Source of the DNA: Deltaproteobacteria bacterium
GTDB taxonomy: Bacteria; Bdellovibrionota_C; UBA2361; SZUA-149; JAITKM01
Assembly: GCA_031278395.1 (NCBI GenBank)
Contig: JAITKM010000018.1
Coordinates: 1 to 64,000, forward strand
Direction of reading: 5' to 3'
Length of the DNA stretch: 64,000 nt
A model generated the notes under the pieces. It had not been told where the DNA came from and searched no databases. It was given only the letters and a program-made list of their open reading frames with translations. Both the position numbers and the translations under genes were made by a program. Of this stretch, positions 50,942 through 64,000 are shown in pieces (position 1 is the first letter of the stretch; the number at the start of each line of letters is the position of its first letter).

Positions 50942-51296
50942 GGGGGTGTTCTGGTTTCGACGTGGATTATGAATCTTTATGTGGCGTGTCTCAGAGCCGT
51001 TGGCTGAGTTAACAAACGGCAAAAATGTAATCGCAAATACTGACGATTATGCAGAAATCGCTTTAGTAGCTTAATACTTTGGCGTCTTTTAGCTAGGTAG
51101 CTTGCGCTTGGTTAAAAGTTAATTTAGCAAACTAGGAAAATGTTGCTGCTTTGACGGCATAACTGAAAATTATTCAAAGCTAGTTATAAAGTTCCTGTCT
51201 GAGGGAGGCGTTATGATGAAATTCAAACTTAGGCTACACACGTAGAGGCATTTAGAAACAAATTCGCGGACGGGGGTTCAATTCCCCCCACCTCCA
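50942..51296 (+). ncRNA. ssrA: tmRNA (transfer-messenger RNA)
   Basis: Rescues stalled ribosomes by trans-translation. The 5' end GGGGGTG pairs with CACCTCC near the 3' end, and the T arm GGGGG-TTCAATT-CCCCC (51272-51288) is perfect. TTCTGGTTTCGACG is the usual 5' conserved stretch. The discriminator is A51296; CCA is not encoded. The tag frame runs 51033-51074 and reads ANTDDYAEIALVA followed by TAA. The ends were set by pairing the acceptor stem, so they may shift by a base. Confidence 0.95.
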
Positions 51297-51425: not shown

Positions 51426-51800
51426 GTGATGGATAGTGAATTTATTGATAGTGAAGTATTAAACGCTAGCGGTGTTTTGGTGATTAATGACCGTAATGAA
51501 AAAGTCTATGGAGATTCGTATGTTTCACTTGCGCTAAAAAAGAATAAAGAAGGCGCCAAGACAGGTGTTAAGGTTATTCCTTTTGCGGACAGTTATAAAT
51601 ATATGTCAGAGAATGGCACGAAAAAAGTTGAGTTCTTGCTAGATCAGGAAGGGCAAAAAACAGTTAGCACCATTGAGTTTAGTAGTGATGGTAAAACTCT
51701 TAACGGTGTCTCACGTGTCTCTGGTAAAGACCCAGTGAGCGGCAAGAGTTATACTGCGCATTATACTTGGAAAGCCCGACGAGTTAATAAGAAAGGGTAA
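51426..51800 (+). CDS. Unknown small protein, probably truncated at its N-terminus
   Basis: A 124-residue ORF that must use GTG at 51426 or ATG at 51429. The open frame extends upstream to TAA at 51399 (ISTGVWKWV), with no better start and no SD. The sequence (WKWVMDSEFID, later SSDGKTLNGVSRVSGKDPVSG) resembles beta-strand-rich secreted proteins, where GTWKW is normally preceded by a signal peptide. It may be a 5'-truncated gene. The WKWV..EFID segment is shared with the remnant at 29613-29993. Confidence 0.5.
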   Translation: MMDSEFIDSEVLNASGVLVINDRNEKVYGDSYVSLALKKNKEGAKTGVKVIPFADSYKYMSENGTKKVEFLLDQEGQKTVSTIEFSSDGKTLNGVSRVSGKDPVSGKSYTAHYTWKARRVNKKG

Positions 51801-51820
51801 AACGTGGTAATTGCAAAAGG

Positions 51821-51892
51821 GGCGCGACTGGAGACGGTTGCGGAGTCCGCCACTAAATAGTTACTAAAAAGCACGCCCAGGATTGCCTGGGC
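51821..51892 (+). terminator. Two hairpins upstream of the tRNA-Leu fragment
   Basis: GGCG-c-GACT pairs with AGTC-CGCC (51821-51851), followed by a perfect 7-bp stem GCCCAGG-attg-CCTGGGC (51875-51892). Either could end transcription of the upstream ORF. Neither has a T-run directly after it. Confidence 0.4.
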
Positions 51893-51958
51893 TACACAAA
51901 ATCTTATTTTTCTCTCTTTTATTTTTTTGCCACTTCTGCTATAGGGCAGCGACTTCAT

Positions 51959-51980
51959 GCCTGGGTGGTGGAATTGGTAG
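51959..51980 (+). tRNA. 5' fragment of a tRNA-Leu gene (likely left attachment site)
   Basis: The 22 nt from GCCTGGGTGGTGG onward match the 5' end of bacterial tRNA-Leu: acceptor strand, then the GTGGAATTGGTAG D-arm start. After position 51980 the expected ACACGC... is replaced by TTGTGAAGAGGTG and no anticodon or T arm follows. A promoter-like TTTTGCCA/CTATAG pair lies upstream. The simplest reading is that an integrated element interrupts the gene here and carries the rest at its other end. Confidence 0.75.
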
Positions 51981-52154
51981 TTGTGAAGAGGTGTTACTAT
52001 GTTAGTCTACATATTCTATTTAGTTTTATAATTTCCTATACATAAGAATGTTGTTATATTAAGTATTTCTATGTGTTTTTGCTATGTCTAGTTGTGTTTT
52101 TATTTGTTCTAAGTGAAAATGTGCTGCAAAAAATAAAGCTAATATAATGGCAGA

Positions 52155-52184
52155 TTAACAAGCTGGATTTATCCGGCTTGTTAA
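52155..52184 (-). terminator. Strong hairpin at the end of the leftward operon
   Basis: TTAACAAGC-T-GGA pairs with TCC-G-GCTTGTTAA around a TTTA loop, a 13-bp stem with one T-G wobble. It lies 60 nt beyond the stop of the Xis-like gene. The lack of a T-run leaves the terminator role uncertain, but its position fits. Confidence 0.5.
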
Positions 52185-52244
52185 AAGAGATATTGTACTA
52201 TTATATTTTTTTGTATTAAGAAATTGTTGCAGTATACTACCTGA

Positions 52245-52436
52245 TTATAGTCCACTCTTCACGTTACTTTCCCATTTGATTACATCTTCCATTGGATAAA
52301 GTTTTTTGCCTTTTTTTAGCCCACTTGGGTTAAATGCTGGCGGCAGTTTTCCCTCCGACTGAAGTCGGTAAGCCACATTAATATCTATTCGCCAACGTTC
52401 GGCTAACTCTTTTATAGTTAAGAATTTTTTTTCCAT
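52245..52436 (-). CDS. AlpA/excisionase-like helix-turn-helix protein
   Basis: I start at the ATG at 52436 (MEKKFLTIKELAERW), with AGAGG 5-6 nt upstream; the track begins two codons earlier at a GTG. About 63 residues. It has a MerR-type winged helix (KELAERWRIDINVAYRLQSEGKLPPAF), as in AlpA and phage Xis proteins. The place next to the attachment site suggests a role in excision. No integrase accompanies it. Confidence 0.7.
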   Translation of the reverse strand: MEKKFLTIKELAERWRIDINVAYRLQSEGKLPPAFNPSGLKKGKKLYPMEDVIKWESNVKSGL

Positions 52437-52445
52437 AATCACCTC

Positions 52446-52718
52446 TTAAAACGGAATATCATCATTGTCAAAACTTGTTCCAGTGTTACCCAGAGCCTGT
52501 TGTTTATTATCTTGCGTATTATTTTTCCCTTGTTGCTTTGGAGCAAAAGAAAAACTAAAATATTTCTTTTCATCTTTTTCCTTAATCCAGCCAGAAATCC
52601 AATACTCAATATTATTAATTGTGCAGCTGCCAGTATAGTCTGGATGATTAGCTTGTTGCTTGCGTTCGTTTTTAAATAATACTCCTCGATTATTGTTGTT
52701 ATATTGTTGTTGCGTCAT
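52446..52718 (-). CDS. SSB-like phage protein with acidic C-terminal tail
   Basis: A 90-residue protein beginning MTQQQYNNNNRGVLFKNERK with NHPDYTGSCTINNIEYWISGWIK, a layout I know from small phage/plasmid proteins with an OB-like fold. The C-terminus is DNDDIPF, the tip that single-strand DNA-binding proteins use to recruit partners. Its place beside the recombination genes supports an SSB role. This is inference from the tail and context. Confidence 0.6.
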   Translation of the reverse strand: MTQQQYNNNNRGVLFKNERKQQANHPDYTGSCTINNIEYWISGWIKEKDEKKYFSFSFAPKQQGKNNTQDNKQQALGNTGTSFDNDDIPF

Positions 52719-52726
52719 AATTATCC

Positions 52727-52918
52727 TTAATATATTTCCTCTTCAAAAACTAAAAGCTGCTTTAGTTCTTGAACTTGATTGTTAATATTTTTAGTCTGAT
52801 TTAAAATTTTATTCCCTCGCTCATTCACGCTAAGTGCAAGCGGAGTGCCAACTAAAATAATTCCAAAAATAAAATAAATTACAATTCTATCAAACATTGT
52901 AAATTTGCATGTATTCAT
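52727..52918 (-). CDS. Small single-pass membrane protein
   Basis: The ATG at 52918 (MNTCKFTMFDRIVIYF) is preceded by an excellent SD (AAAGGAGG), so I prefer it to the track start at 52963. It gives 63 residues: one membrane helix (about 10-28) and a polar helical tail that may form a coiled coil (NKILNQTKNINNQVQELKQLL). It overlaps the 3' end of the ATPase gene by 4 nt. Function unknown; similar small proteins occur in phage early operons. Confidence 0.55.
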   Translation of the reverse strand: MNTCKFTMFDRIVIYFIFGIILVGTPLALSVNERGNKILNQTKNINNQVQELKQLLVFEEEIY

Positions 52919-54573
52919 ACTAACTCCTCCTTTATCTGTTTGCTTACGCCTTTTTCTATCCAATAAACGTTACCTAAACCCATCTTTTCTAGTTTGGGAG
53001 CTTTAACAGGAAGATTAACCATCATCCCAACAAAGGATTTAAACTTCATTACACTAAGCGCGCTTAATAATCCTTTGCGCCCGTTAGCGTCTAGCAGCTC
53101 TGCTCCGTCTATAACTACAGCGTCTGAGTTATCTAATATCGCTGCGGCTATCTGTAAGGTTACACGCACGCGAAATTGCTCAGAGGCTGACAGGATAGGG
53201 TAAGGACGCCCTGCGAAATAAATAGTTAAATCACGATTAATAGATACTGTTGCCCAGTTAGCTTTTTGACAGATTTCTTTAAGTGATAAATTAAATTCAT
53301 CTAAACCTCGCTCCATTGCCTGCCTACGGATACCGTTTTCGTCTAATGCATCAACTATGACCTGATTAGTAATTATATTATTATGTAAACGTTGTGATTC
53401 TGTGTATTTCTTAAAGGCTTGCAGCTGCAACTCTATCATACATAGTGCTTCACGCTTAGCATTAATTATATGTGTACCGATTGTTGCGCTGCTTATTGTT
53501 TTTAGTTGTTGCACCGCCTCTTGAGCAGATTTTAGTTTTTGTTCGCTCTTATTAAGAGCAGATTGTCTAAATTCTAGTACCTGTAAAGCTTTTGTCATCT
53601 CATCTGATATTTTATCTATCTGTTGTTTTAATGCTGCTACTTCATCCTTAGACATCGAAGAAGTTTTTTTGAGATATAGACCATGTATAATAACATTTTC
53701 TCCACAATATGGGCATGGAACACCTTTCTCCGGCAACGGTGGTAAAGTTTTAGCTTTAAACTCCAAGCTATCGACATTCTGTTTTGCTGATTGATATAAT
53801 TTTTTAGATTTCAGCAGTGCTGATTGCAACTCGGTAATACTATTAGCTTCCTCTGTTAGTTTAGCTCGGACATCGTCTGAGACTGCTTGCTTGCCTATCA
53901 TATCTTCTAATTCTGAATTTAATAGAGTAATTTGCCCTTGCAATGCCTCCTGTGAACTAGTCTGTAATGATGCGTCCCAACCAAATTCCGGTGTCCAAAT
54001 CTCACCTTTTTTAGAGCCGTATTGTTCGCCTGTTACATAAGCCCATTGTGATTTGAAGGATTTACCTTTTTCCTTTGCGGTGTTTAGTTGCGCTTCCCAA
54101 CCATTTATCTCTATTTGTTTCCATAGAGTATCTATCAATTCCTGTTTAATTCCCTTTTTTAATAATTCGTTTTTAAAATCATCTTTAGTGGGTAGACAGT
54201 TTAGAAGTTTTCTTAAATACTCAACCCTTCTTTTTTCATCCATATCAATTATGGATTCTAACCCAGCCGCAACCGTCGAGGCTTTGGGGGGATTAGTTCC
54301 GTTAGTGCGTAATTCTGCTTTAGGGTAATTAATTTCTGCCGCGCCTTCGTCACCTGAAAGTATTACGTTCGCTTCTATTGAGCCAAGCTTAACAAGTAAT
54401 CCTGCATCTTGTTTTTTTAACCCTAGCGGCATTGTAAGTCCACTCAGAGTAGCGGAGATTGGACGCAGTGCAGAAGATTTTCCCTGGTGATTTTGCCCTG
54501 TTAATAGGGCAATAGGGGCAGCTTTTATTGATATATTTTCCGCCCCCATAAAGTTAGTTATTGTTGCTTTCAT
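52915..54573 (-). CDS. Rad50/SMC-like ATPase with zinc-hook-type CxxC
   Basis: A 552-residue ABC-type ATPase. Walker A GQNHQGKSS (about 26-34) is followed by a long coiled-coil region (about 215-420). In it lies a CPYC motif (PEKGVPCPYCGENV, about 291), as in Rad50-type zinc hooks. The C-terminal lobe has a signature-like LSASEQFRVRV (about 459) and Walker B AVVIDGAELLD (about 481). Such proteins hold or process DNA ends. It sits between RecT-like and SSB-like genes, overlapping one and 2 nt from the other. No SbcD/Mre11-type nuclease is adjacent. Confidence 0.75.
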   Translation of the reverse strand: MKATITNFMGAENISIKAAPIALLTGQNHQGKSSALRPISATLSGLTMPLGLKKQDAGLLVKLGSIEANVILSGDEGAAEINYPKAELRTNGTNPPKASTVAAGLESIIDMDEKRRVEYLRKLLNCLPTKDDFKNELLKKGIKQELIDTLWKQIEINGWEAQLNTAKEKGKSFKSQWAYVTGEQYGSKKGEIWTPEFGWDASLQTSSQEALQGQITLLNSELEDMIGKQAVSDDVRAKLTEEANSITELQSALLKSKKLYQSAKQNVDSLEFKAKTLPPLPEKGVPCPYCGENVIIHGLYLKKTSSMSKDEVAALKQQIDKISDEMTKALQVLEFRQSALNKSEQKLKSAQEAVQQLKTISSATIGTHIINAKREALCMIELQLQAFKKYTESQRLHNNIITNQVIVDALDENGIRRQAMERGLDEFNLSLKEICQKANWATVSINRDLTIYFAGRPYPILSASEQFRVRVTLQIAAAILDNSDAVVIDGAELLDANGRKGLLSALSVMKFKSFVGMMVNLPVKAPKLEKMGLGNVYWIEKGVSKQIKEELV

Positions 54574-54575
54574 TT

Positions 54576-55439
54576 TTATTCCTCCCCCCAGTCACTATTA
54601 TCTCCCTGTTCTGGTTTTGCTTCTGTTTTAGACTCAGGCTCTATAAACTTAGGGATTGACGATGTCGTTTCATTCGCCTTCGAGGGGCGACCACGTTTTT
54701 TTATTGTGATAGCTACTTTATTTTTTTCTAACTCCGCTTCTGCTGTCGTCTCTGGCTCGGCGACTTGCGCCATTTGTAACACTGGAGTTTCTAGTTTGGG
54801 TATTTCAGTTTCTTTTACTTCTATTATATCTATAATTTCTTCATGAGATTGTAACCCGTTTAAAATTTCAGCAACATATCGTTTCCCAAAAAAACTCGCT
54901 GCACGATAGGTAAGCATTAATTCAGGCATTGTTTTCCATTTACTGCCTTCTTTATCATACCAGCCTTCTTTAACTGCCATTTCGATTGTTACGGTTGGTG
55001 ATTTTAGGGTTTCGCCTGTAGCTTTTTCTTTACAATACGCAAAACAAGAAAAATCATGTATTTTAAATGATACTTTCTCATATTTTCCTGTCTGATAATT
55101 TTTATAATTATATTCGACCGTTTTTTCTCCTAAGTCTTTTAGGTCAAAGTTTAAGTGAGTAAATCTCCCGCAGGAATTTATAACTGAAATAATATACTGC
55201 GAACTCCAGCAAGGACGTCCTTTAATTATAAAAAGATTTTGCATTACCATCAAAGGCGAAATGTTTTGACGCATTGCGATATCAAGAGCGATCATCATAT
55301 CGCCCTTATTCTTTTTATAAGTCTCTGGTATAATACTGCTGCCAGAAAGGATGTTTATAATTTCATTAATACTTCCAAACTTGCTAAAAATACCAAGTGC
55401 TTTATTGTTATTTACTACTGTGGATATTTCGTTTTCCAT
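54576..55439 (-). CDS. RecT-like single-strand annealing protein with AT-hook
   Basis: A 287-residue protein matching the RecT/Redbeta-type annealing proteins of phages: MMIALDIAMRQNISPLMVMQNLFIIKGRPCWSSQYI and the later PELMLTYRAASFFGKRYVAEILNGL are typical. The C-terminal 80 residues are acidic/polar with an AT-hook-like KKRGRPSKA (about 250), not part of the classic RecT core. It should pair single strands during phage recombination together with the nuclease encoded 1 nt upstream. Confidence 0.75.
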   Translation of the reverse strand: MENEISTVVNNNKALGIFSKFGSINEIINILSGSSIIPETYKKNKGDMMIALDIAMRQNISPLMVMQNLFIIKGRPCWSSQYIISVINSCGRFTHLNFDLKDLGEKTVEYNYKNYQTGKYEKVSFKIHDFSCFAYCKEKATGETLKSPTVTIEMAVKEGWYDKEGSKWKTMPELMLTYRAASFFGKRYVAEILNGLQSHEEIIDIIEVKETEIPKLETPVLQMAQVAEPETTAEAELEKNKVAITIKKRGRPSKANETTSSIPKFIEPESKTEAKPEQGDNSDWGEE

Positions 55440-55440
55440 T

Positions 55441-56283
55441 TTAAATCTCCTTATTAAGATTATTAAAATTAATTTTTTTGTGTGATTTACAAAAATCTGT
55501 GCCCCAAGCCGGGCAATAATCTGGCGTGCACATCATGGAGTTAGGGTTAGGTAACCACGCCCAGATATCGCCGTTTTGGCGGAATTTTTGTAAATCTGAT
55601 TTTATTTTTTGAATTATTTGGTAAGCGATAAGTTCCGCTTCTTTGACGCTATATTCAACTATTATAGGCTCTGGCTGAGGCTTAATTATACCAACCCGTT
55701 TTATGTAAATCTCGCCTATTTTATTTATTCCTATTCCGTTAGAACGGCATAGAAGCGAGTAGCATCCATACTGCGCCTGATTAGCACGATGTACTGTGCC
55801 AGTTTTTAAATCCCAAATTTCTCCTTCGGAGCGGATATCAATGTGTCCTGAAATTATAAAATTATCACCAAAATCTGCTGTGTATTCTTCCTCTATTTTT
55901 ACAGCAGTTAAAAACGATATAGCACCTAAAACAGCATGCGCCATCCTGACAGCTTGATTTATTGCATCGTCCTTTTTTCTCGTTGTATCGTCCCAGATTA
56001 CGCCGTAAGCGATACTCTGCTCAATCGATTCGGCGGCTGTCTCACGCATCGGCTGGATATAGTCACAGCCGTCTTTAATTAATAATAAAGCAGTCTCTAA
56101 AGACTTATGCGTTGCTGTTCCGACAGCCGCTCCGATTGAAATTTGTAATTTATTTATTTTAAATCCGTATTGCGCCAGCTCTTTAAAAAACATTTTAGCC
56201 GCAGCACGTCGTGTGCAGTCTGTATAATGAGGTAGGCTCGATGCCCGTATTATCGTTGTTTTTGGATTATTTTCGTTTCCCAT
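55441..56283 (-). CDS. RecB/Cas4-like PD-(D/E)XK nuclease with putative Fe-S cysteines
   Basis: A 280-residue nuclease. The catalytic core reads GHIDIRSEGEIWDLKTGT (about 148-165), the Asp...(D/E)xK pattern. One Cys near the N-terminus (YTDCTRR, about 23) and three near the C-terminus (CTPDYCPAWGTDFC, about 251-264) match the 4-Cys Fe-S lock of Cas4/AddB-type nucleases. It is the first gene of the leftward arm and would supply resected ends for the RecT-like protein. No cas genes are present, so it is not part of a CRISPR locus. Confidence 0.8.
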   Translation of the reverse strand: MGNENNPKTTIIRASSLPHYTDCTRRAAAKMFFKELAQYGFKINKLQISIGAAVGTATHKSLETALLLIKDGCDYIQPMRETAAESIEQSIAYGVIWDDTTRKKDDAINQAVRMAHAVLGAISFLTAVKIEEEYTADFGDNFIISGHIDIRSEGEIWDLKTGTVHRANQAQYGCYSLLCRSNGIGINKIGEIYIKRVGIIKPQPEPIIVEYSVKEAELIAYQIIQKIKSDLQKFRQNGDIWAWLPNPNSMMCTPDYCPAWGTDFCKSHKKINFNNLNKEI

Positions 56284-56423
56284 GTTTGTCCCGTTAGCGT
56301 TATAATTAGAACATTATACTATAATTGGTAACATTACAATACAAAATGTAACAAAACGAGAAATAATATTTATTATTTAATTATTATAGTTAGTTATATA
56401 TTACAAAAAATAAAAATAATTTA

Positions 56424-56451
56424 TTGACTAATTGTATCTTATAGGATACAA
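56424..56451 (+). promoter_or_regulatory. Promoter and operator of the toxin-antitoxin pair
   Basis: A TTGACT -35 element (56424-56429) is followed by a perfect inverted repeat TTGTATC-ttatag-GATACAA (56432-56451), just before the toxin ATG at 56460. An operator overlapping the promoter fits autorepression by the HigA-like antitoxin. The exact -10 is unclear. Confidence 0.55.
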
Positions 56452-56459
56452 CTACAAAT

Positions 56460-56759
56460 ATGATAATTGAGAAAACAGAAATTTTTGAGAAATGGTTAAA
56501 AAGGTTAAAAGATGAGCAGGCTAAAGGTTGTATTAATATTAAAATAAAAAGAATAGAAACAGAAAATTATTTCGGAGATTGTAGGTCAGTTGGTGATGGA
56601 ATTTTTGAGTTACGTATTTTTGTAGGTCCTGGATATAGAATATATTTTTACTACAAAGACGAAAGGGTTATAATGCTGCTTTGTGGTGGCAATAAAAAAA
56701 CTCAAAAAAGAGATATTAAAACGGCAAAACAAATATTAAAAGGAGAATATAAATTATGA
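56460..56759 (+). CDS. HigB/RelE-like toxin (phage Gp49-like)
   Basis: A 99-residue protein of the RelE/HigB group: TEIFEKWLKRLKDEQAKGCI at the N-terminus and ELRIFVGPGYRIYFYYKDERVIMLLCGGNKKTQKRDI toward the C-terminus are typical of the Gp49-like addiction-module killers. Such toxins cut mRNA on the ribosome. It comes before its antitoxin and overlaps it by 4 nt, the order seen in higBA. Confidence 0.88.
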   Translation: MIIEKTEIFEKWLKRLKDEQAKGCINIKIKRIETENYFGDCRSVGDGIFELRIFVGPGYRIYFYYKDERVIMLLCGGNKKTQKRDIKTAKQILKGEYKL

Positions 56760-57058
56760 AAAAACTAAAAACAACAAAATGGGATATATTAGATTATCTT
56801 GATAACGAAAAGGCAATTGCTGCTTATCTTTCTGCTGCAATTGCCGAAAATAATTTACCAACTTTTATTACCGCAATAGGTGATGTTGTTCGCGCACGTG
56901 GAGTAAACGACATGGCTAAAAAAATGAAAGTCGGCAGGGAAAGCCTTTATAAAAGCTTTTCTGGAAAAACCAAACCAAATTTTGAGACAGTCATAAAGGC
57001 ACTTGATATATTAGGGGTTAAAATCAATGTTCTTCCTAAAACAAAATCGTGTAGATAA
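56756..57058 (+). CDS. HigA-like antitoxin
   Basis: A 100-residue DNA-binding partner of the toxin. The segment YLDNEKAIAAYLSAAIAENN followed by an HTH (MAKKMKVGRESLYKSFSGKTKPNFETVIKALDILGV) is the standard addiction-module antidote pattern. It should bind the toxin and the operator upstream. It converges with the DUF1829-like gene, only 2 nt away. Confidence 0.88.
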   Translation: MKKLKTTKWDILDYLDNEKAIAAYLSAAIAENNLPTFITAIGDVVRARGVNDMAKKMKVGRESLYKSFSGKTKPNFETVIKALDILGVKINVLPKTKSCR

Positions 57059-57060
57059 AA

Positions 57061-57834
57061 TTATGCGGCTAATAGTTCTTTAGATGCTTCTTTTTGAGAC
57101 CATAAAATAGTATTAATATCATATACTTTAAGGGCTTCAGTTGCTTCGTTTGATATATTTTTATCCTCGTCGTTAGCTATAACATAGGCTACTGACTTAT
57201 CCGTACGCATATCTTTAGTATCAAGCCAATCCATAATAAACATACTAGTTGAAGTTTTATTAGGATAATTAATAGCTCTTATTATTCTTTCTGGTGAGTT
57301 GGTTGATCTAGGAATTACGTAATCAAAACGCCTAGAGAATCCAGTTTTACCGGATAATAAAACATCAGGAGTATATCTTATATTAGAATTTTTTAGCCAA
57401 TTTCCAACATTTTCTAAAAATAAGTTTGTAGAATGCGGAGATGCAAGATAATACAAATCATTAATAGAAATAATAGCTTGTAGTAGGCAGTGTTTTTTAT
57501 AGGGAAAATCTTTGATTGTGGCAGCCGTAGTTAGTTCGTTGTTTTTACCTAATTTTATACCAAAACCATTTAAGACAATTTTTAAATAGTCTTTATTTTT
57601 TAAGGTTTCAAGGGATAGTCCAGACGATAATAAATCATTTATTGTTTCCCCGCCGTCATTAAGAATAAAATTTTCTTTTTCCTCGTTCTTAAAGTAGATT
57701 TGAATCGCATCGTTATGTCTGTCTAGATATGGGGTAGTTATTTCAGACCAGCCGTTTCCAACATCCTCAAAGGTTGTTTGGTCTCTTAACCAAATATAAT
57801 AGTTATCAATCATTTTTTGTAATTCTATTTTCAT
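57061..57834 (-). CDS. DUF1828/DUF1829-like protein
   Basis: A 257-residue soluble protein. The first half (WLRDQTTFEDVGNGWSEITTPYLDRHNDAIQIYF, FILNDGGETINDLLSSG) fits DUF1828; the second (RFDYVIPRSTNSPERIIRAINYPNK, then AYVIANDE) fits DUF1829. The families occur in prophages and islands with no proven function that I know of. Its ATG overlaps the stop of the upstream frameshifted DUF6978-like gene (ATGA), so the two were built as a coupled pair. Confidence 0.7.
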   Translation of the reverse strand: MKIELQKMIDNYYIWLRDQTTFEDVGNGWSEITTPYLDRHNDAIQIYFKNEEKENFILNDGGETINDLLSSGLSLETLKNKDYLKIVLNGFGIKLGKNNELTTAATIKDFPYKKHCLLQAIISINDLYYLASPHSTNLFLENVGNWLKNSNIRYTPDVLLSGKTGFSRRFDYVIPRSTNSPERIIRAINYPNKTSTSMFIMDWLDTKDMRTDKSVAYVIANDEDKNISNEATEALKVYDINTILWSQKEASKELLAA

Positions 57835-58284
57835 ATATGGAAGTTCCTGATTTGCAGTATATTTGGAGGTTTCACTATATGACAGAATTTCATAAAATCC
57901 TCAAATGTTTTATAGAAATCAGATAAATCTGTAAATATTTCCTTAGGTATTTCTATTGCGAATTTATCTAAAAAATTCTCTTTATAAATATGTAAATGAT
58001 TACTACTAAGTTTTTGTCCATCTGGATTTGTATGTGGCGCACTATTAATATCTAGTCTCGCTAAAATAATTACTTTTCGACTTCTTAGGTTATTAGATAT
58101 TTTATTTAGTTTAAATTGATTTTTTGTATAATCAATTATAAATTCCTCTTTTTTATTCTCAGAAATAAAATTTAATGATAATTTACCACCACCTAAATCA
58201 GGTAAAGATATTTTTTTCGTTCTTATAATACTTATTTATTGCTAGTAAATTATCTGCTTCTTTTTGCGACATATTGGCGTTCAT
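57831..58284 (-). pseudogene. DUF6978-like protein gene, frameshifted at an A7 run
   Basis: Missed by the ORF track. From ATG 58284 (or 58272) the frame reads NMSQKEADNLLAINKYYKNEKN and stops at TGA 58198. Removing one A from the A7 run (T7 at 58211-58217 on the plus strand) continues into a long frame: ISLPDLGGGKLSLNF, SAPHTNPDGQKLSSNHLHIY, FEDFMKFCHI, ending at TGA 57831. The joined product is about 150 residues and looks like DUF6978 proteins, which neighbour DUF1829-type genes. It could be a pseudogene, slippage-controlled, or a sequencing error. Confidence 0.75.
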
Positions 58285-58294
58285 ATATTATATA

Positions 58295-58870
58295 CTAAAA
58301 ATAATTAACAAATGACCCAATAACACGCCCTAATATTTTTACATCTTTAATTTTCATTTCTGTTTTTATCGTATATTTTTCATTATCGCATTTTATCAGT
58401 GCTTTTTCAGCGATTAAATCAACTTCCACACGCCGAAAACCGTAGTTATCACCTATTGTAGGAATTACGTAGATTCCAGATTTATCAATTTTATTAATAC
58501 CAAAATCCACGAGCACAGAATCATCCGGCTTAAATGTTGGATACATTTCGTCGCCTGTTAGTTTAACCCATTTTGGGATTATTGCGTTGGGAGCTATATT
58601 AATATTAGTAATAATTTTTTCTTCAGAATCTAAAAGTTCCCCAGCGGGAATCTGAAGAGCATTTGCTAATTTAATTACATGTTCATGCTTTGGGTATTTA
58701 ACATGCCCAGTCATTATTTTTCTTAATATCTCGTAAGATACACCAGATTTTTGTGCAAGATCTGCCAGAAGGTCAAATCCTCTCTTTTTCATGTATAGTT
58801 TTAAATTTTTAATTAGTGCTTCTGTTTCTGTTGGTACAGTTTCTTTTTTTAATATTTTTTCCCGTTTCAT
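58295..58870 (-). CDS. CI/LexA-like phage repressor lacking the S24 catalytic residues
   Basis: A 191-residue transcription factor with an N-terminal HTH (about 30-82, DLAQKSGVSYEILRKIMTGHVKYP) and a C-terminal S24-type domain. Where self-cleaving repressors have GDSM, this has GDEMYPTF (about 105), and the Lys position (usually VKR) reads FRRV. With both Ser and Lys missing, RecA-stimulated self-cleavage is unlikely. It is the expected lysogeny repressor, divergent from the helicase gene across a region of inverted repeats. Confidence 0.82.
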   Translation of the reverse strand: MKREKILKKETVPTETEALIKNLKLYMKKRGFDLLADLAQKSGVSYEILRKIMTGHVKYPKHEHVIKLANALQIPAGELLDSEEKIITNINIAPNAIIPKWVKLTGDEMYPTFKPDDSVLVDFGINKIDKSGIYVIPTIGDNYGFRRVEVDLIAEKALIKCDNEKYTIKTEMKIKDVKILGRVIGSFVNYF

Positions 58871-59123
58871 AGCCTTCCCGAAGATTTTTCTGATTAAATA
58901 TACGTATATTAACTATCTTTGTAAATAATATCGCCTCTTTTTTAGGATAATTTAAAATTTTTTGTTCACTTTTATAAACAAAAGGGAATAATTATACTTG
59001 ACTGTTACAAAATAGAACTATAAGGGAATATTAATCACGGCGGCTCAATGGTAGCTCCTTTGAGTGCAAGATTTTCCCGATCTTTGTCCGTGATTTTTTA
59101 AGGGATAAAATCGAGGGAATGGA
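58871..59123. promoter_or_regulatory. Repressor/replication divergent control region
   Basis: 253 nt between the repressor and helicase genes. A perfect 14-bp palindrome AATATACGTATATT (58897-58910) and TTTTGTT...AACAAAA (58960-58983) are operator candidates. A rightward promoter can be drawn as TTGACT (58998-59003) and TATAAG (59019-59024) with a short 15-nt spacer. AAGGGAATA occurs twice (58982-58990 and 59022-59030). The region corresponds to the OR/PR region of lambda in position. Confidence 0.55.
59033..59098 (+). ncRNA. tRNA-like or attenuator hairpin before the replication arm
   Basis: AATCACGG (59033-59040) pairs perfectly with CCGTGATT (59088-59095), followed by T residues (TGATTTTTTA). 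Inside lie CTCA...TGAG (59044-59064) with the D-loop-like AATGGTAGC, and AAGAT-TTTCCCG-ATCTT (59068-59084), a 5-bp stem with a 7-nt loop. That is an acceptor, D-like and anticodon-like arm with no T arm. The outer stem plus T-run also makes a fair intrinsic terminator. Both readings are inference. Confidence 0.4.
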
Positions 59124-60560
59124 ATGCAACTTAGAGATTATCAAATAAAAGCAATCGACGACATCAAGCAAGCATTCGCTTCAGGGTTTAGGGCACCGTT
59201 ATTTCAGATGATGTGCGGTGGAGGTAAGACGGCAATTCTCTCTCATATCACAAAGGGTGCAGCGCAAAAACAAAATCACGTATGTATCGTTGTTCATCGG
59301 CAAGAACTAGTAACACAAACATCAGTAGCTCTCGCGCGTACAGGCGTGTGGCATAACATTTGTGCAACTAATAACGTTGTACAGTCTGCTATCAAATCTC
59401 AAATAAAATCTACTGGTAGGTCTTATTATCAGTATGAATCATTTGTAACAGTAGCGTCTATTCAGACGTTAATTCGTCGTATGCACGAATATCCAAGTTT
59501 TAATTTTCTACTACTAGATGAGGCAGCGCATGCCTGCGCTGCAACGTGGACTAAACTAATCTCATATTATCCAAAAGCTAAAATTCTAGGTGTTACTGCA
59601 ACTCCACAGCGCCTTGATGGCAGAGGTTTAGGTGTCGAATCTGGAGGTGTGTTTGACACGCTTATAAATGGACCAAGTGTCAAACACCTTATTGAACAAG
59701 GCTGGTTGTCAGACTATAAAGTTTACGCTCCGCCAAACGATTTAAATTTAGATGGAATAAAAAAAATCGCCGGCGACTACGCTAAAAACGAACTTGTAAA
59801 ACTTGTCGATAAAAATAAAATTACAGGCGATGTAATCGAGCATTATAAAAAAATATGTAACGGTGTCCCATCCATTGCGTTCTGTGTATCGATAGAACAT
59901 GCAAAACATGTAGCGGAGCAATTTAAAGCCGCAGGTTATCGTGCGGCTTGCATTGACGGCAAGTTAGACGATTATACGCGTCGTTCTTACATTGATGCGC
60001 TTGGTTGTGGTGGTTTAAATGTTTTAACCTCCTGTGAGATTATTTCAGAAGGCACAGATATACCTATCGTGGGTGCAGTGATTCTTTTACGCCCGACGCA
60101 CTCTTTATCATTGCATTTGCAACAAATCGGCAGAGGGTTACGTCTATACCAAGATAAAGAATATGTAATAATTTTAGACCACGTAGGAAATATAGCTCGA
60201 CATGGATTTCCAGATGACGCCCGTGAGTGGACATTAGAGGGAAGGTCTTTTAAAAATAAAAAAATATCAGATAAAATTCTATCAATTCGTCAGTGCCTAA
60301 ACTGTTACGCAATATATCCAGCAAATTTAAACATCTGTCCGCAGTGTAAAACACCGCTACAAAAATCAACACGAGAGATTCAGCAAGAAGAAGGACAATT
60401 AATAGAAATTCAGCGCCTACAGGAACGTAGGCAAGCACGAATCGAACAAGGTAGAGCGCAGGCATTAAAAGACTTAATAGAACTAGGAAAGCGCAAGGGA
60501 TACAAAAATCCTTACGCGTGGGCAAAGTATGTTTTTAACGCAAGGATAAAAACGGCATGA
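59124..60560 (+). CDS. DEAD/DEAH-box (SF2) helicase of phage type
   Basis: A 478-residue helicase. Motif I is MCGGGKT (about 30-36), motif II DEAAH (about 136), motif III VTATPQR (about 160) and motif VI QQIGRGLR (about 336). The C-terminal part has two CxxC pairs (CLNCYAIYPANLNICPQC) that could bind zinc, then a basic helix. Start at 59124 is preceded by GAGGG. It opens the rightward arm and probably helps replication with the primase downstream. Its stop overlaps the next gene (ATGA). Confidence 0.9.
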   Translation: MQLRDYQIKAIDDIKQAFASGFRAPLFQMMCGGGKTAILSHITKGAAQKQNHVCIVVHRQELVTQTSVALARTGVWHNICATNNVVQSAIKSQIKSTGRSYYQYESFVTVASIQTLIRRMHEYPSFNFLLLDEAAHACAATWTKLISYYPKAKILGVTATPQRLDGRGLGVESGGVFDTLINGPSVKHLIEQGWLSDYKVYAPPNDLNLDGIKKIAGDYAKNELVKLVDKNKITGDVIEHYKKICNGVPSIAFCVSIEHAKHVAEQFKAAGYRAACIDGKLDDYTRRSYIDALGCGGLNVLTSCEIISEGTDIPIVGAVILLRPTHSLSLHLQQIGRGLRLYQDKEYVIILDHVGNIARHGFPDDAREWTLEGRSFKNKKISDKILSIRQCLNCYAIYPANLNICPQCKTPLQKSTREIQQEEGQLIEIQRLQERRQARIEQGRAQALKDLIELGKRKGYKNPYAWAKYVFNARIKTA

Positions 60561-60967
60561 GATATAGACATAAAAAACGGGCTCAAAACAACTTAGCCAT
60601 AAAATTCTCCGATACACCAGAGGTTAATCTCTTAATAGCGATTATAAAACAAAGTTGGGTTGATGAACTACTACCGACTTACGGCATTTCCCGAAAAAGC
60701 TCAGGTATTAGAAGTAGAAATGATAAAATATCGGCGCATGATTTTTTTTATCACGGCGATTATTTCGGTGAAATCTGTAATGTAATTAATCTCAATCAAG
60801 AGCAATTTATATATTATTTAGAAAAGGTAAAAATAATTTTAAATAACAATAAAAAACTAAGACAGCCGCAAAAAGTTTTAGAAATTTTTAGATTAGTTAT
60901 AAAAAAAATGATTCGTACCCAAAACGATGAAGATAATTATAATTTCCATTTATGCAAGAATCATTAA
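60557..60967 (+). CDS. Unknown phage protein
   Basis: A 136-residue protein I do not recognise. It is basic at the N-terminus (MRYRHKKRAQNN), mostly helical in look, with ESWVDE-like and HDFFYHGDYFGEICNV segments. It overlaps the helicase by 4 nt and the nuclease gene by 16 nt, so it belongs to the replication operon. A DNA-associated role is only suggested by context. Confidence 0.6.
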   Translation: MRYRHKKRAQNNLAIKFSDTPEVNLLIAIIKQSWVDELLPTYGISRKSSGIRSRNDKISAHDFFYHGDYFGEICNVINLNQEQFIYYLEKVKIILNNNKKLRQPQKVLEIFRLVIKKMIRTQNDEDNYNFHLCKNH

Positions 60968-61332
60968 TTTTAAAAAAAATAATGTTAGCATTAGGGCAGC
61001 TTAAAACTCTCCGTATTTGGCGTAATAATACAGGCGTTTTATGGAGCGGAACAGATATTAAAAAACTAGGTAAGGATATTTATATTAAAAACGCTTATCC
61101 TGTCAGGTTCGGATTAGAAGGCTCGGCGGACATTTTAGGAATTATTGCGCCGGATGGAAAATTTTTAGCAATAGAAGTTAAACAACAAAGAGGTAGGCAG
61201 TCAGAGAAGCAAAAGAATTTTGAGAATATGATTAAATCCTTGGGGGGAGTTTATATTTTAGCACACTCTCCTGAGGAAGCTTTAGAAAAATTAAAAGTTG
61301 TTATTAACGTTAATAAAACAGAAATAATATGA
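60952..61332 (+). CDS. VRR-NUC domain nuclease
   Basis: A 126-residue stand-alone VRR-NUC protein. The core reads GSADILGIIAPDGKFLAIEVKQQRGRQSEKQKNF (about 58-92), giving the G(S/T)xD...(E)xK pattern and the QxxF helix of this PD-(D/E)XK family. Such phage nucleases resolve branched or structured DNA. It lies between the unknown protein and the primase, overlapping the primase by 4 nt. Confidence 0.85.
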   Translation: MQESLILKKIMLALGQLKTLRIWRNNTGVLWSGTDIKKLGKDIYIKNAYPVRFGLEGSADILGIIAPDGKFLAIEVKQQRGRQSEKQKNFENMIKSLGGVYILAHSPEEALEKLKVVINVNKTEII

Positions 61333-63800
61333 GCAAAAAACTAGATTTCGATAATATAAATATTAACGCTTTAAATCGTTTACCAACGCTACTTAGGGAA
61401 TGGTTACCTGAAGGAGTACAACAAGGAAACGAATATGTATGTGGCTCATGGAACGGAGAGAAAGGGACATCGTTATCTATTAATATTAACACTGGTAAAG
61501 GTGGAGATTTTGCCTCTAACGATTTAGTTGGTGATCCTATAGGAATTTATGCAAAACGGTTTAATATAGATAGGGTTCAAGCAGCTAGAGAATTAGATAA
61601 AATAGTTAACAATACACCTGAGGTTATATCCAAGCCTAAAAAAGTAGATTCCGAAGTAGAAAAGATAAAAAAATTAAATAAAATTCTTTCAGAGTCTGTT
61701 TCGTTGCTTAAAACACCTGCTCAAAAATATCTCCAAAATAGAGGATTAACTTCTTGTAATACTAATATTTTTAAATATCGTCCTCATAAATCCGGCGGTG
61801 GTTCTCTAGTCTGTATAGCGTTTAATGAAAATAATGAGGTTAAGGCTGTTCAACAAGTTTTTATAACTGCTGAAGGTAAAAAGAATACAATTGTAAAGAA
61901 TATAAAAATAACAAACGGGTTTCCGTCTGGTAATCCAATAAGAATACCAAGGCGTCCAAGTGTTTCAGAAAATACACCTATAATTGTCTGCGAAGGACCA
62001 GAAGATGCGATAACCTTATCTAATGCTACAGGGTTTGAAGTCTGGGGAACATGTGGACTTAGTTTTATGGATAAGATTCCTTTTATTCCTGAACGCCAGT
62101 ATTTAATTGTTCGAGACAATGACCCTATAGGCTCTGAAGCAGATGTAAAAATTAACAAAATTATCTCAACGTTAATAGACCGAGGTTTAAACAATCTGTT
62201 ATGCACACGTCCGCCGGATGGAGTTAAGGATTCAAATGAATTATTGAAGACTACTGGAATTAAAGCTGTTGAAGAAATGATTAATAACGCCCAGCCGGTG
62301 CATGATTTTAGGAATTTAACCGAGGAAGACACCCAAAAATCTCAAGCCTTAGAAAATGAAGTATGCGAAAATAATGAAGTAAATAAATTTTTAACTAAAG
62401 AAGGGTTAAAAATAAAAAACTGTTCGAAATATGAATATAACGACACTGGAAATTCTGAACGCATTGTTGAGCATTGGGGGGATAAAGTTAAATATATAGA
62501 CGAATTAAGTTGGGCTATATATAAAAAAGGAAGATGGGAGCTGGCATCTGATAAAAGAGCGCTTAATATGGTTATGGATGTTATTAAAAAAATAAAAAAA
62601 GAAAGAAATTACATCACAGAGATTAGAAAAGAGGCTTTAGAAAAGTGGTATTGGAAATCAAGAAGCGAACATTGTACTAGGGCATCTCTTAATCTAGCAA
62701 AAGCAAAACTTCTTATTGAAGCAGAAAAATTTAATCAGTATCCATATTATTTAAATTGCAATAACGGTGTTTTGGATCTTAAAACTGGGAAGCTTTTACC
62801 ACATAACCCGGAATATTACTTAACTAAAAAGATAGATACTAATTATGACCCATCGGCAAAGTGCCCCCAATGGGATAAGTTTCTAAATGAAATTTTCTCT
62901 GGCAATATAGATTTAATTAATTATATTCAAAGATGTGTTGGATATAGTTTAACAGGCGATACATGTGAACAGTGTATGTTTATTTTTTTAGGGCATGGTT
63001 CTGATGGGAAGTCTCTATTTTTTGATGTATTAAAGAATTTACTACGGGATTATCATTGCAATATTCCTGTTTCTACTTTTGAGCTAAAAAAACAGGAGAA
63101 TGAAGCACAACCGTTTATAGCTCAATTACAAAATATTCGTTTCGTTGTGTCAGCAGAAAGTAATACAGATGTTTATTTTAATGAAGCATTAATAAAATCA
63201 CTAACAGGAGAAAGAGAGATTGTGACTAGGGGACTATATTCTGCCCCAATAAATATGAAAATAGAGTTTAAAATTTGGTTATCTACTAATTATAAGTTAA
63301 AACTTAAAAATACTGAAAGAGGAATAAAAAGGCGTTTAAAATTAATTCCTTTAAACGAATATTTTTATGAAGATGGCGATAATTCAGAAGAGGCGAAAAA
63401 AGGAAGATTAAAGGATAAAAAATTATATGAAAAACTTTCAACGGAAAAAGAAGGTATTCTTGCTTGGGCAATTAGGGGATGTTTAGAGTGGCAAAAACTA
63501 GGTGGATTACATGAGGTAGACATAGTTAAGGATACAACAGAAAACTATTTTAAAGAAATGGATACTATTGGAAATTTTTTAGAAGAGTGTTGCGAAAAAA
63601 ATCCTTGCTATTCTATAGAGGCAAGAGATTTGTATCAATCTTATAGAAAATGGTGTGAAAAAACGGGACATATAGCATTTGCAGACAATGGTTTTTATAG
63701 AAAATTATCGGAAAAAAATATCGAAAGAAGACACACACGATGTGGAAATAGATATTTTGGAATAGTATTAAAAAATTGGAATAATAATTTTGTTAATTAG
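61329..63800 (+). CDS. Phage primase-helicase (Toprim plus D5-type SF3 helicase)
   Basis: An 823-residue replication protein. The N-terminal part has a possible DNA-binding/zinc-less primase region (about 1-95). A Toprim-like domain follows (PIIVCEGPEDAITL about 217-230, LIVRDNDP about 256). The C-terminal half is a D5/SF3 helicase: the D5_N region, then Walker A GHGSDGKS (about 556), a B-type strand IRFVVSAE and WLSTNYKLKLKNTERGIKRRLKLIP. It should prime and unwind element DNA. Confidence 0.88.
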   Translation: MSKKLDFDNININALNRLPTLLREWLPEGVQQGNEYVCGSWNGEKGTSLSININTGKGGDFASNDLVGDPIGIYAKRFNIDRVQAARELDKIVNNTPEVISKPKKVDSEVEKIKKLNKILSESVSLLKTPAQKYLQNRGLTSCNTNIFKYRPHKSGGGSLVCIAFNENNEVKAVQQVFITAEGKKNTIVKNIKITNGFPSGNPIRIPRRPSVSENTPIIVCEGPEDAITLSNATGFEVWGTCGLSFMDKIPFIPERQYLIVRDNDPIGSEADVKINKIISTLIDRGLNNLLCTRPPDGVKDSNELLKTTGIKAVEEMINNAQPVHDFRNLTEEDTQKSQALENEVCENNEVNKFLTKEGLKIKNCSKYEYNDTGNSERIVEHWGDKVKYIDELSWAIYKKGRWELASDKRALNMVMDVIKKIKKERNYITEIRKEALEKWYWKSRSEHCTRASLNLAKAKLLIEAEKFNQYPYYLNCNNGVLDLKTGKLLPHNPEYYLTKKIDTNYDPSAKCPQWDKFLNEIFSGNIDLINYIQRCVGYSLTGDTCEQCMFIFLGHGSDGKSLFFDVLKNLLRDYHCNIPVSTFELKKQENEAQPFIAQLQNIRFVVSAESNTDVYFNEALIKSLTGEREIVTRGLYSAPINMKIEFKIWLSTNYKLKLKNTERGIKRRLKLIPLNEYFYEDGDNSEEAKKGRLKDKKLYEKLSTEKEGILAWAIRGCLEWQKLGGLHEVDIVKDTTENYFKEMDTIGNFLEECCEKNPCYSIEARDLYQSYRKWCEKTGHIAFADNGFYRKLSEKNIERRHTRCGNRYFGIVLKNWNNNFVN

Positions 63801-63809
63801 GGAAAATTT

Positions 63810-64000
63810 ATGTATTACGATGTATTAAAAGAGTTAAATGAAGCCGATAAATATATTGAGGCAAATTCAAATAACTTGTGTAAAAAATTTAAAACAATAA
63901 AAGAATATAATATGCTTAAAAAATGGATAGATGATAAAAAAAATTCCAATTATAGAAAAAAAATACCGCCAGTCGTAGGCTTTTATTGTTTTTTAATTCA
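63810..64000 (+). CDS. Partial unknown element protein, cut by the window end
   Basis: An ATG at 63810 with a weak GGAAAA upstream opens a frame that runs off the window: MYYDVLKELNEADKYIEAN, then a Lys/Asn-rich helical stretch. At least 63 residues. Too short to name. It begins 9 nt after the primase stop and is probably in the same operon. Confidence 0.5.
   Translation, partial: MYYDVLKELNEADKYIEANSNNLCKKFKTIKEYNMLKKWIDDKKNSNYRKKIPPVVGFYCFLI

Follow-up and report, generated by a model that had tools for sequence, protein, structure and literature searches.

A displaced tRNA-Leu 5' fragment at the edge of a prophage suggests integration in the 5' part of the tRNA gene

The subject of this work is a fragment of a tRNA-Leu gene that appears to mark one end of a prophage in the draft genome (G000; 1.71 Mb in 63 contigs) of a Deltaproteobacteria bacterium (GCA_031278395.1). 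The stretch analysed, referred to here as the window, comprises the first 64,000 nucleotides (nt) of contig JAITKM010000018.1 (C15), which ends at 65221, shortly past the window end. On the forward strand at 51959-51980, the sequence GCCTGGGTGGTGGAATTGGTAG is identical to nt 1-22 of tRNA-Leu and phage DNA lies directly 3' of it, bearing out the original prediction of a tRNA-Leu gene cut after 22 nt at the edge of a mobile element. The break falls in the 3' part of the D loop, and past nt 22 the flank of this stub is unrelated to the tRNA, with 35% identity. ARAGORN calls no tRNA at the stub, its sole call in the window being a tmRNA at 50942-51296. Within the window the 22-mer has no further match at three or fewer mismatches, and none arose in 100 shuffles.

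Exactly two exact copies of the 22-mer are found in the whole genome. The second forms the 5' end of an intact tRNA-Leu(CAA) gene on contig C44 (2784-2869), and a third copy with one mismatch is the start of tRNA-Leu(UAA). In an ungapped comparison, the match between stub and tRNA continues 5 bp upstream (TTCAT) to give a 27-bp block, TTCATGCCTGGGTGGTGGAATTGGTAG, located at 51954-51980 in the window and at 2780-2806 on C44, where it includes the 5' end of the intact gene. The sequences flanking the block are unrelated between C15 and C44 (27% and 35% identity). The rest of the tRNA is thus indeed missing at the stub, as had been noted, but the gene itself is not lost: only a 5' stub has been displaced and a complete copy stands on C44. 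The proposed check, a search for a second 22-nt core followed by a complete tRNA-Leu, was carried out and found its target there; absence of the core or of the tRNA 3' part from the far end had been named as evidence against an element, and both are present.

Upstream of the intact tRNA, C44 carries a 396-amino acid (aa) tyrosine integrase (1443-2633; domains Arm-DNA-bind_3 and Phage_integrase) whose open reading frame (ORF) is whole and whose start codon lies ~150 bp from the 5' end of the tRNA gene. It is preceded by a gene for an Rz-like spanin. No other arm-type integrase was found in the genome, where the sole other PF00589 protein is XerC/D-like, with no arm domain seen. Fourteen bp before the tRNA 5' end is a perfect TATAAT (2765-2770), paired with a weak -35 element (TTGTGT, 18-bp spacer). 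On the 3' side of the tRNA follow a U32 peptidase gene and then a further ORF that, judging from its sequence, we take for initiation factor IF-3. Just before the integrase start codon, at 2649-2681, there is also a perfect 15-bp tandem repeat (GGTAGGGGAGGTTAT, two copies with an 18-bp step), possibly representing further arm sites or an operator.

We interpret the stub as the left attachment site (attL) of a prophage integrated by its 396-aa arm-type integrase in the 5' part of the host tRNA-Leu(CAA) gene, and put the probability of this reading at about 0.9; that the element is a prophage of the 5' tRNA type is a conclusion we hold with high confidence. Genes of a temperate phage are present for replication, repression and lysis (primase, RecT, S24 repressor and Rz-like spanin). 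In the route we propose, the integrase would recombine the phage site (attP) with a bacterial site (attB) in the 5' part of the tRNA gene. DNA upstream of the crossover in the original gene would stay on C15 along with the stub, and the host 3' part of the tRNA would be joined to a phage-borne 5' end at the C44 block, the right attachment site (attR), giving a complete tRNA-Leu with phage DNA and its TATAAT box as promoter region. As integration of this kind exchanges the 5' side of the tRNA gene, the element must supply both the 5' end and a promoter. Such an element, restoring the gene at its far end with its own tRNA 5' part and promoter, had been anticipated, and C44 fits this description, with the core leading into a complete tRNA-Leu and phage DNA with a good -10 box before it. 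Replacement of the tRNA promoter by phage DNA is plausible, and we infer that the new promoter may be active.

That the C15 and C44 ends bound one element with one attP is suggested by the matching cores, by gene contents that complement each other, by the presence of one arm-type integrase only and by a 20-bp arm-type motif shared by the two ends. The motif, AAATGTGYTGCAAAWAATAA, is present once per arm in the same orientation, at C44 2703-2722 and C15 52117-52136, that is (by our arithmetic) at about -90 and +150 relative to the right edge of the 27-bp block. Its 13-base core has no other copy in the window or in C44:1-20000, although with five copies genome-wide the short core alone is not unique. 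Several observations weigh against a single integrated prophage. C15 and C44, which carry the two ends, are separate contigs that neither overlap nor are linked in the assembly, and there is no clear inverted-repeat core site around the block. No empty site was seen: among 58 relatives searched, none belongs to the same family, and in genomes of the same order the stretches searched next to the U32 peptidase gene contain no tRNA-Leu. Neither a terminase (phrog_2) nor a portal protein (PF04860) was found in the draft genome with the three models tried, the only match to PF03237 (Terminase_6N), on contig C63, being below cut-off; the middle of the prophage was not found, and its contigs may be missing. 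Finally, the TATAAT box is not picked up by a consensus-based promoter scan, which demands a better -35 element, and promoter-like matches are about as frequent in the region as in shuffled sequence. The separate contigs and missing middle would also fit an origin of the stub in one prophage and of the tRNA and integrase edge in another, through tandem or successive integrations in the same tRNA gene. We consider this improbable, given the one arm-type integrase found in the genome and the arm motif common to both ends; a tandem arrangement would also leave three exact 22-mers where two exist, although missing contigs could hide one. Still less probable, to the point of being hardly credible, is a chance match or a misassembly: the assembly is indeed a draft in 63 contigs, but no match is expected by chance and the stub, phage genes, integrase and intact tRNA are all present in the right orientation.

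Where within the tRNA the exchange took place is a separate question. Integrases are believed to favour the symmetric loops of tRNA genes and to leave the host promoter in place. Here the block common to attL and attR starts 5 bp ahead of the gene and ends at nt 22. Strand exchange would be expected inside these 27 bp and, strictly, could have occurred anywhere in them. A phage need match the tRNA only from the 5' end of the gene to the crossover, however, and the sharp edge at nt 22 thus suggests exchange in the D arm, with the crossover most likely towards the block's right end. A crossover in the anticodon loop is excluded unless the stub has since lost its right part. Exactly such a history, in which the true crossover lay in the anticodon loop, like that of known 5'-type islands, and mutation later erased the right half of the stub, is in our view unlikely, though less so than the two-prophage explanation. 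Not one position of nt 1-22 has changed, and directly beyond them similarity is at background level; gradual decay would not leave so abrupt a boundary, although a deletion could. On balance we lean towards strand exchange in the D arm, a subsite beyond the anticodon loop, the T loop and the T/acceptor junction, in which case the phage would supply the promoter, the 5' leader and the acceptor 5' strand and the host tRNA would come under phage transcriptional control. Our confidence in a D-arm crossover as a new variant is moderate. The original prediction had called a break in the D arm an unusual target, with an element that restores the gene as the alternative, and the two appear to hold together. 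The word unusual applies to the limit of the attL/attR block, whose end in the D loop looks unusual beside the anticodon, T-loop and T/acceptor subsites; it does not apply to use of the 5' end as such, since the layout of 5'-type tRNA prophages is rare but known.

Table 1. Features of the window at and beyond the tRNA-Leu stub
Feature	Position	Strand	Basis
Presumed former upstream region of the tRNA-Leu gene (host DNA), now orphaned	51801..51953	+	Inferred from position relative to attL; gene-free after the ORF ending at 51800; hairpin at 51875-51892
attL core, 27-bp block TTCATGCCTGGGTGGTGGAATTGGTAG	51954..51980	+	Common to attR at C44:2780-2806; ungapped comparison, genome search
Displaced tRNA-Leu 5' fragment, nt 1-22 (acceptor 5' strand, D stem 5' strand, most of D loop)	51959..51980	+	Identical to start of tRNA-Leu(CAA), C44:2784-2869
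Left part of prophage	51981..64000, on to C15 end at 65221		Phage-type genes: RecT-like, exonuclease, CI-like repressor with S24 domain, helicase, VRR-NUC, D5-type primase
Arm-type motif AAATGTGCTGCAAAAAATAA	52117..52136	+	18 of 20 positions match the copy on the second arm, C44:2703-2722; 1/200 shuffled pairs and 0/200 control pairs of phage segments score as high
RecT-like single-stranded DNA-annealing protein of prophage	54576..55439	-	phrog_561, E=3e-60
CI/S24-type repressor	58295..58870	-	Helix-turn-helix and Peptidase_S24
Phage primase/D5-type helicase	61329..63800	+	phrog_1829, E=2e-114

Besides the features collected in Table 1, the prophage encodes a RelE/ParE-type toxin and HI1420-type antitoxin pair (RelE/HigA-type) at 56460-57058. 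On the other side of attL, the gene just before it (51426-51800) encodes a 124-aa protein; eight or more divergent paralogues of it lie elsewhere in the genome, on other contigs, most of them within much longer open frames.

The closest relatives found for the integrase are arm-type enzymes of alphaproteobacteria (Thalassospira, Ruegeria, Paracoccus) with ~35% identity and the same domain layout; a scan of viral contigs with the single integrase sequence as query gave no relative. We considered whether these relatives generally use tRNA 5' ends. Only six of 160 loci have a tRNA within 3 kb, from which no subsite rule can be derived for the clade; at several of the six the 5' end of the tRNA faces the integrase, and the tRNAs are fMet, Met or Lys, as against Leu for the prophage described here. 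A second core was sought in four viral records and none was found. In Shimia sagamensis (locus L101, 2775-2853), the sequence that ARAGORN calls a tRNA-Glu, beside a related integrase, resembles a Met-type tRNA 3' half joined to element DNA and is probably a displaced 3' fragment of such a tRNA.

If correct, a crossover in the D arm, at the 5' end of the gene, would add to the tRNA subsites known so far. Transcription of a host tRNA would also pass to the prophage, such that excision or phage regulation could alter tRNA supply. We regard the locus as a clean, testable single case and not as a new system.

Among known tRNA-integrating elements, the closest parallels in layout include the 5'-type islands of the Islander collection, in which 159 of 3919 islands have a 5' fragment of the tRNA gene (PMC4383910). 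The locus shares with these an intact tRNA, a displaced 5' fragment and an element-borne tyrosine integrase. The strands of fragment and tRNA and the sides of the element would fit the Islander signature, in which the 5' fragment lies upstream of a like-oriented tRNA on one replicon, but the ends are on the separate contigs C15 and C44. All Islander islands are assigned to an anticodon (A; 2083 islands) or T-region (J; 1836 islands) subsite (PMC4383910), whereas the identity block here, ending in the D loop at nt 22, lies short of the anticodon loop and excludes both. A review likewise lists three bacterial tRNA subsites, with the original promoter retained by the tRNA in all but very few exceptions, and gives pTN3-like elements as the archaeal case of 5'-half use. 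Like those elements, which also occupy tRNA-Leu, the prophage uses the 5' half and the gene is rebuilt intact but parted from its original promoter. In pTN3 the block measures 41 bp, anticodon included (PMC5495485, PMC8371274), in contrast to 27 bp without the anticodon loop here; and unlike the integrase genes of pTN3 and SSV-type elements, which are split on integration, the 396-aa integrase ORF is whole.

In bacteria, nine of 88 Sinorhizobium meliloti elements lie at tRNA 5' ends (PMC11476347), again with a repeat matching the tRNA 5' end and an intact tRNA; the likeness seen is in the 5'-end layout, and the nine may include a precedent for the D arm. An exact scan of IMG/VR with the 22-mer returned 13 contigs. 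Six independent contigs have a clearly truncated tRNA-Leu 5' part, and in all six the match runs past the anticodon loop, making the window stub the shortest, and the only one ending in the D loop, of the truncated tRNA-Leu fragments examined, a small sample and not a survey. At five IMG/VR loci (L256, L259, L262, L263 and L265), a tyrosine integrase ORF comes immediately after a truncated tRNA-Leu 5' part that reaches through the anticodon arm and lies on the same strand, so after integration a host tRNA promoter could read into int. Lastly, the HE-PICIs have a doubled arm motif at -81 and +132 from the centre of attP (PMC10111431), a layout comparable to that of the doubled motif of the tRNA-Leu prophage.
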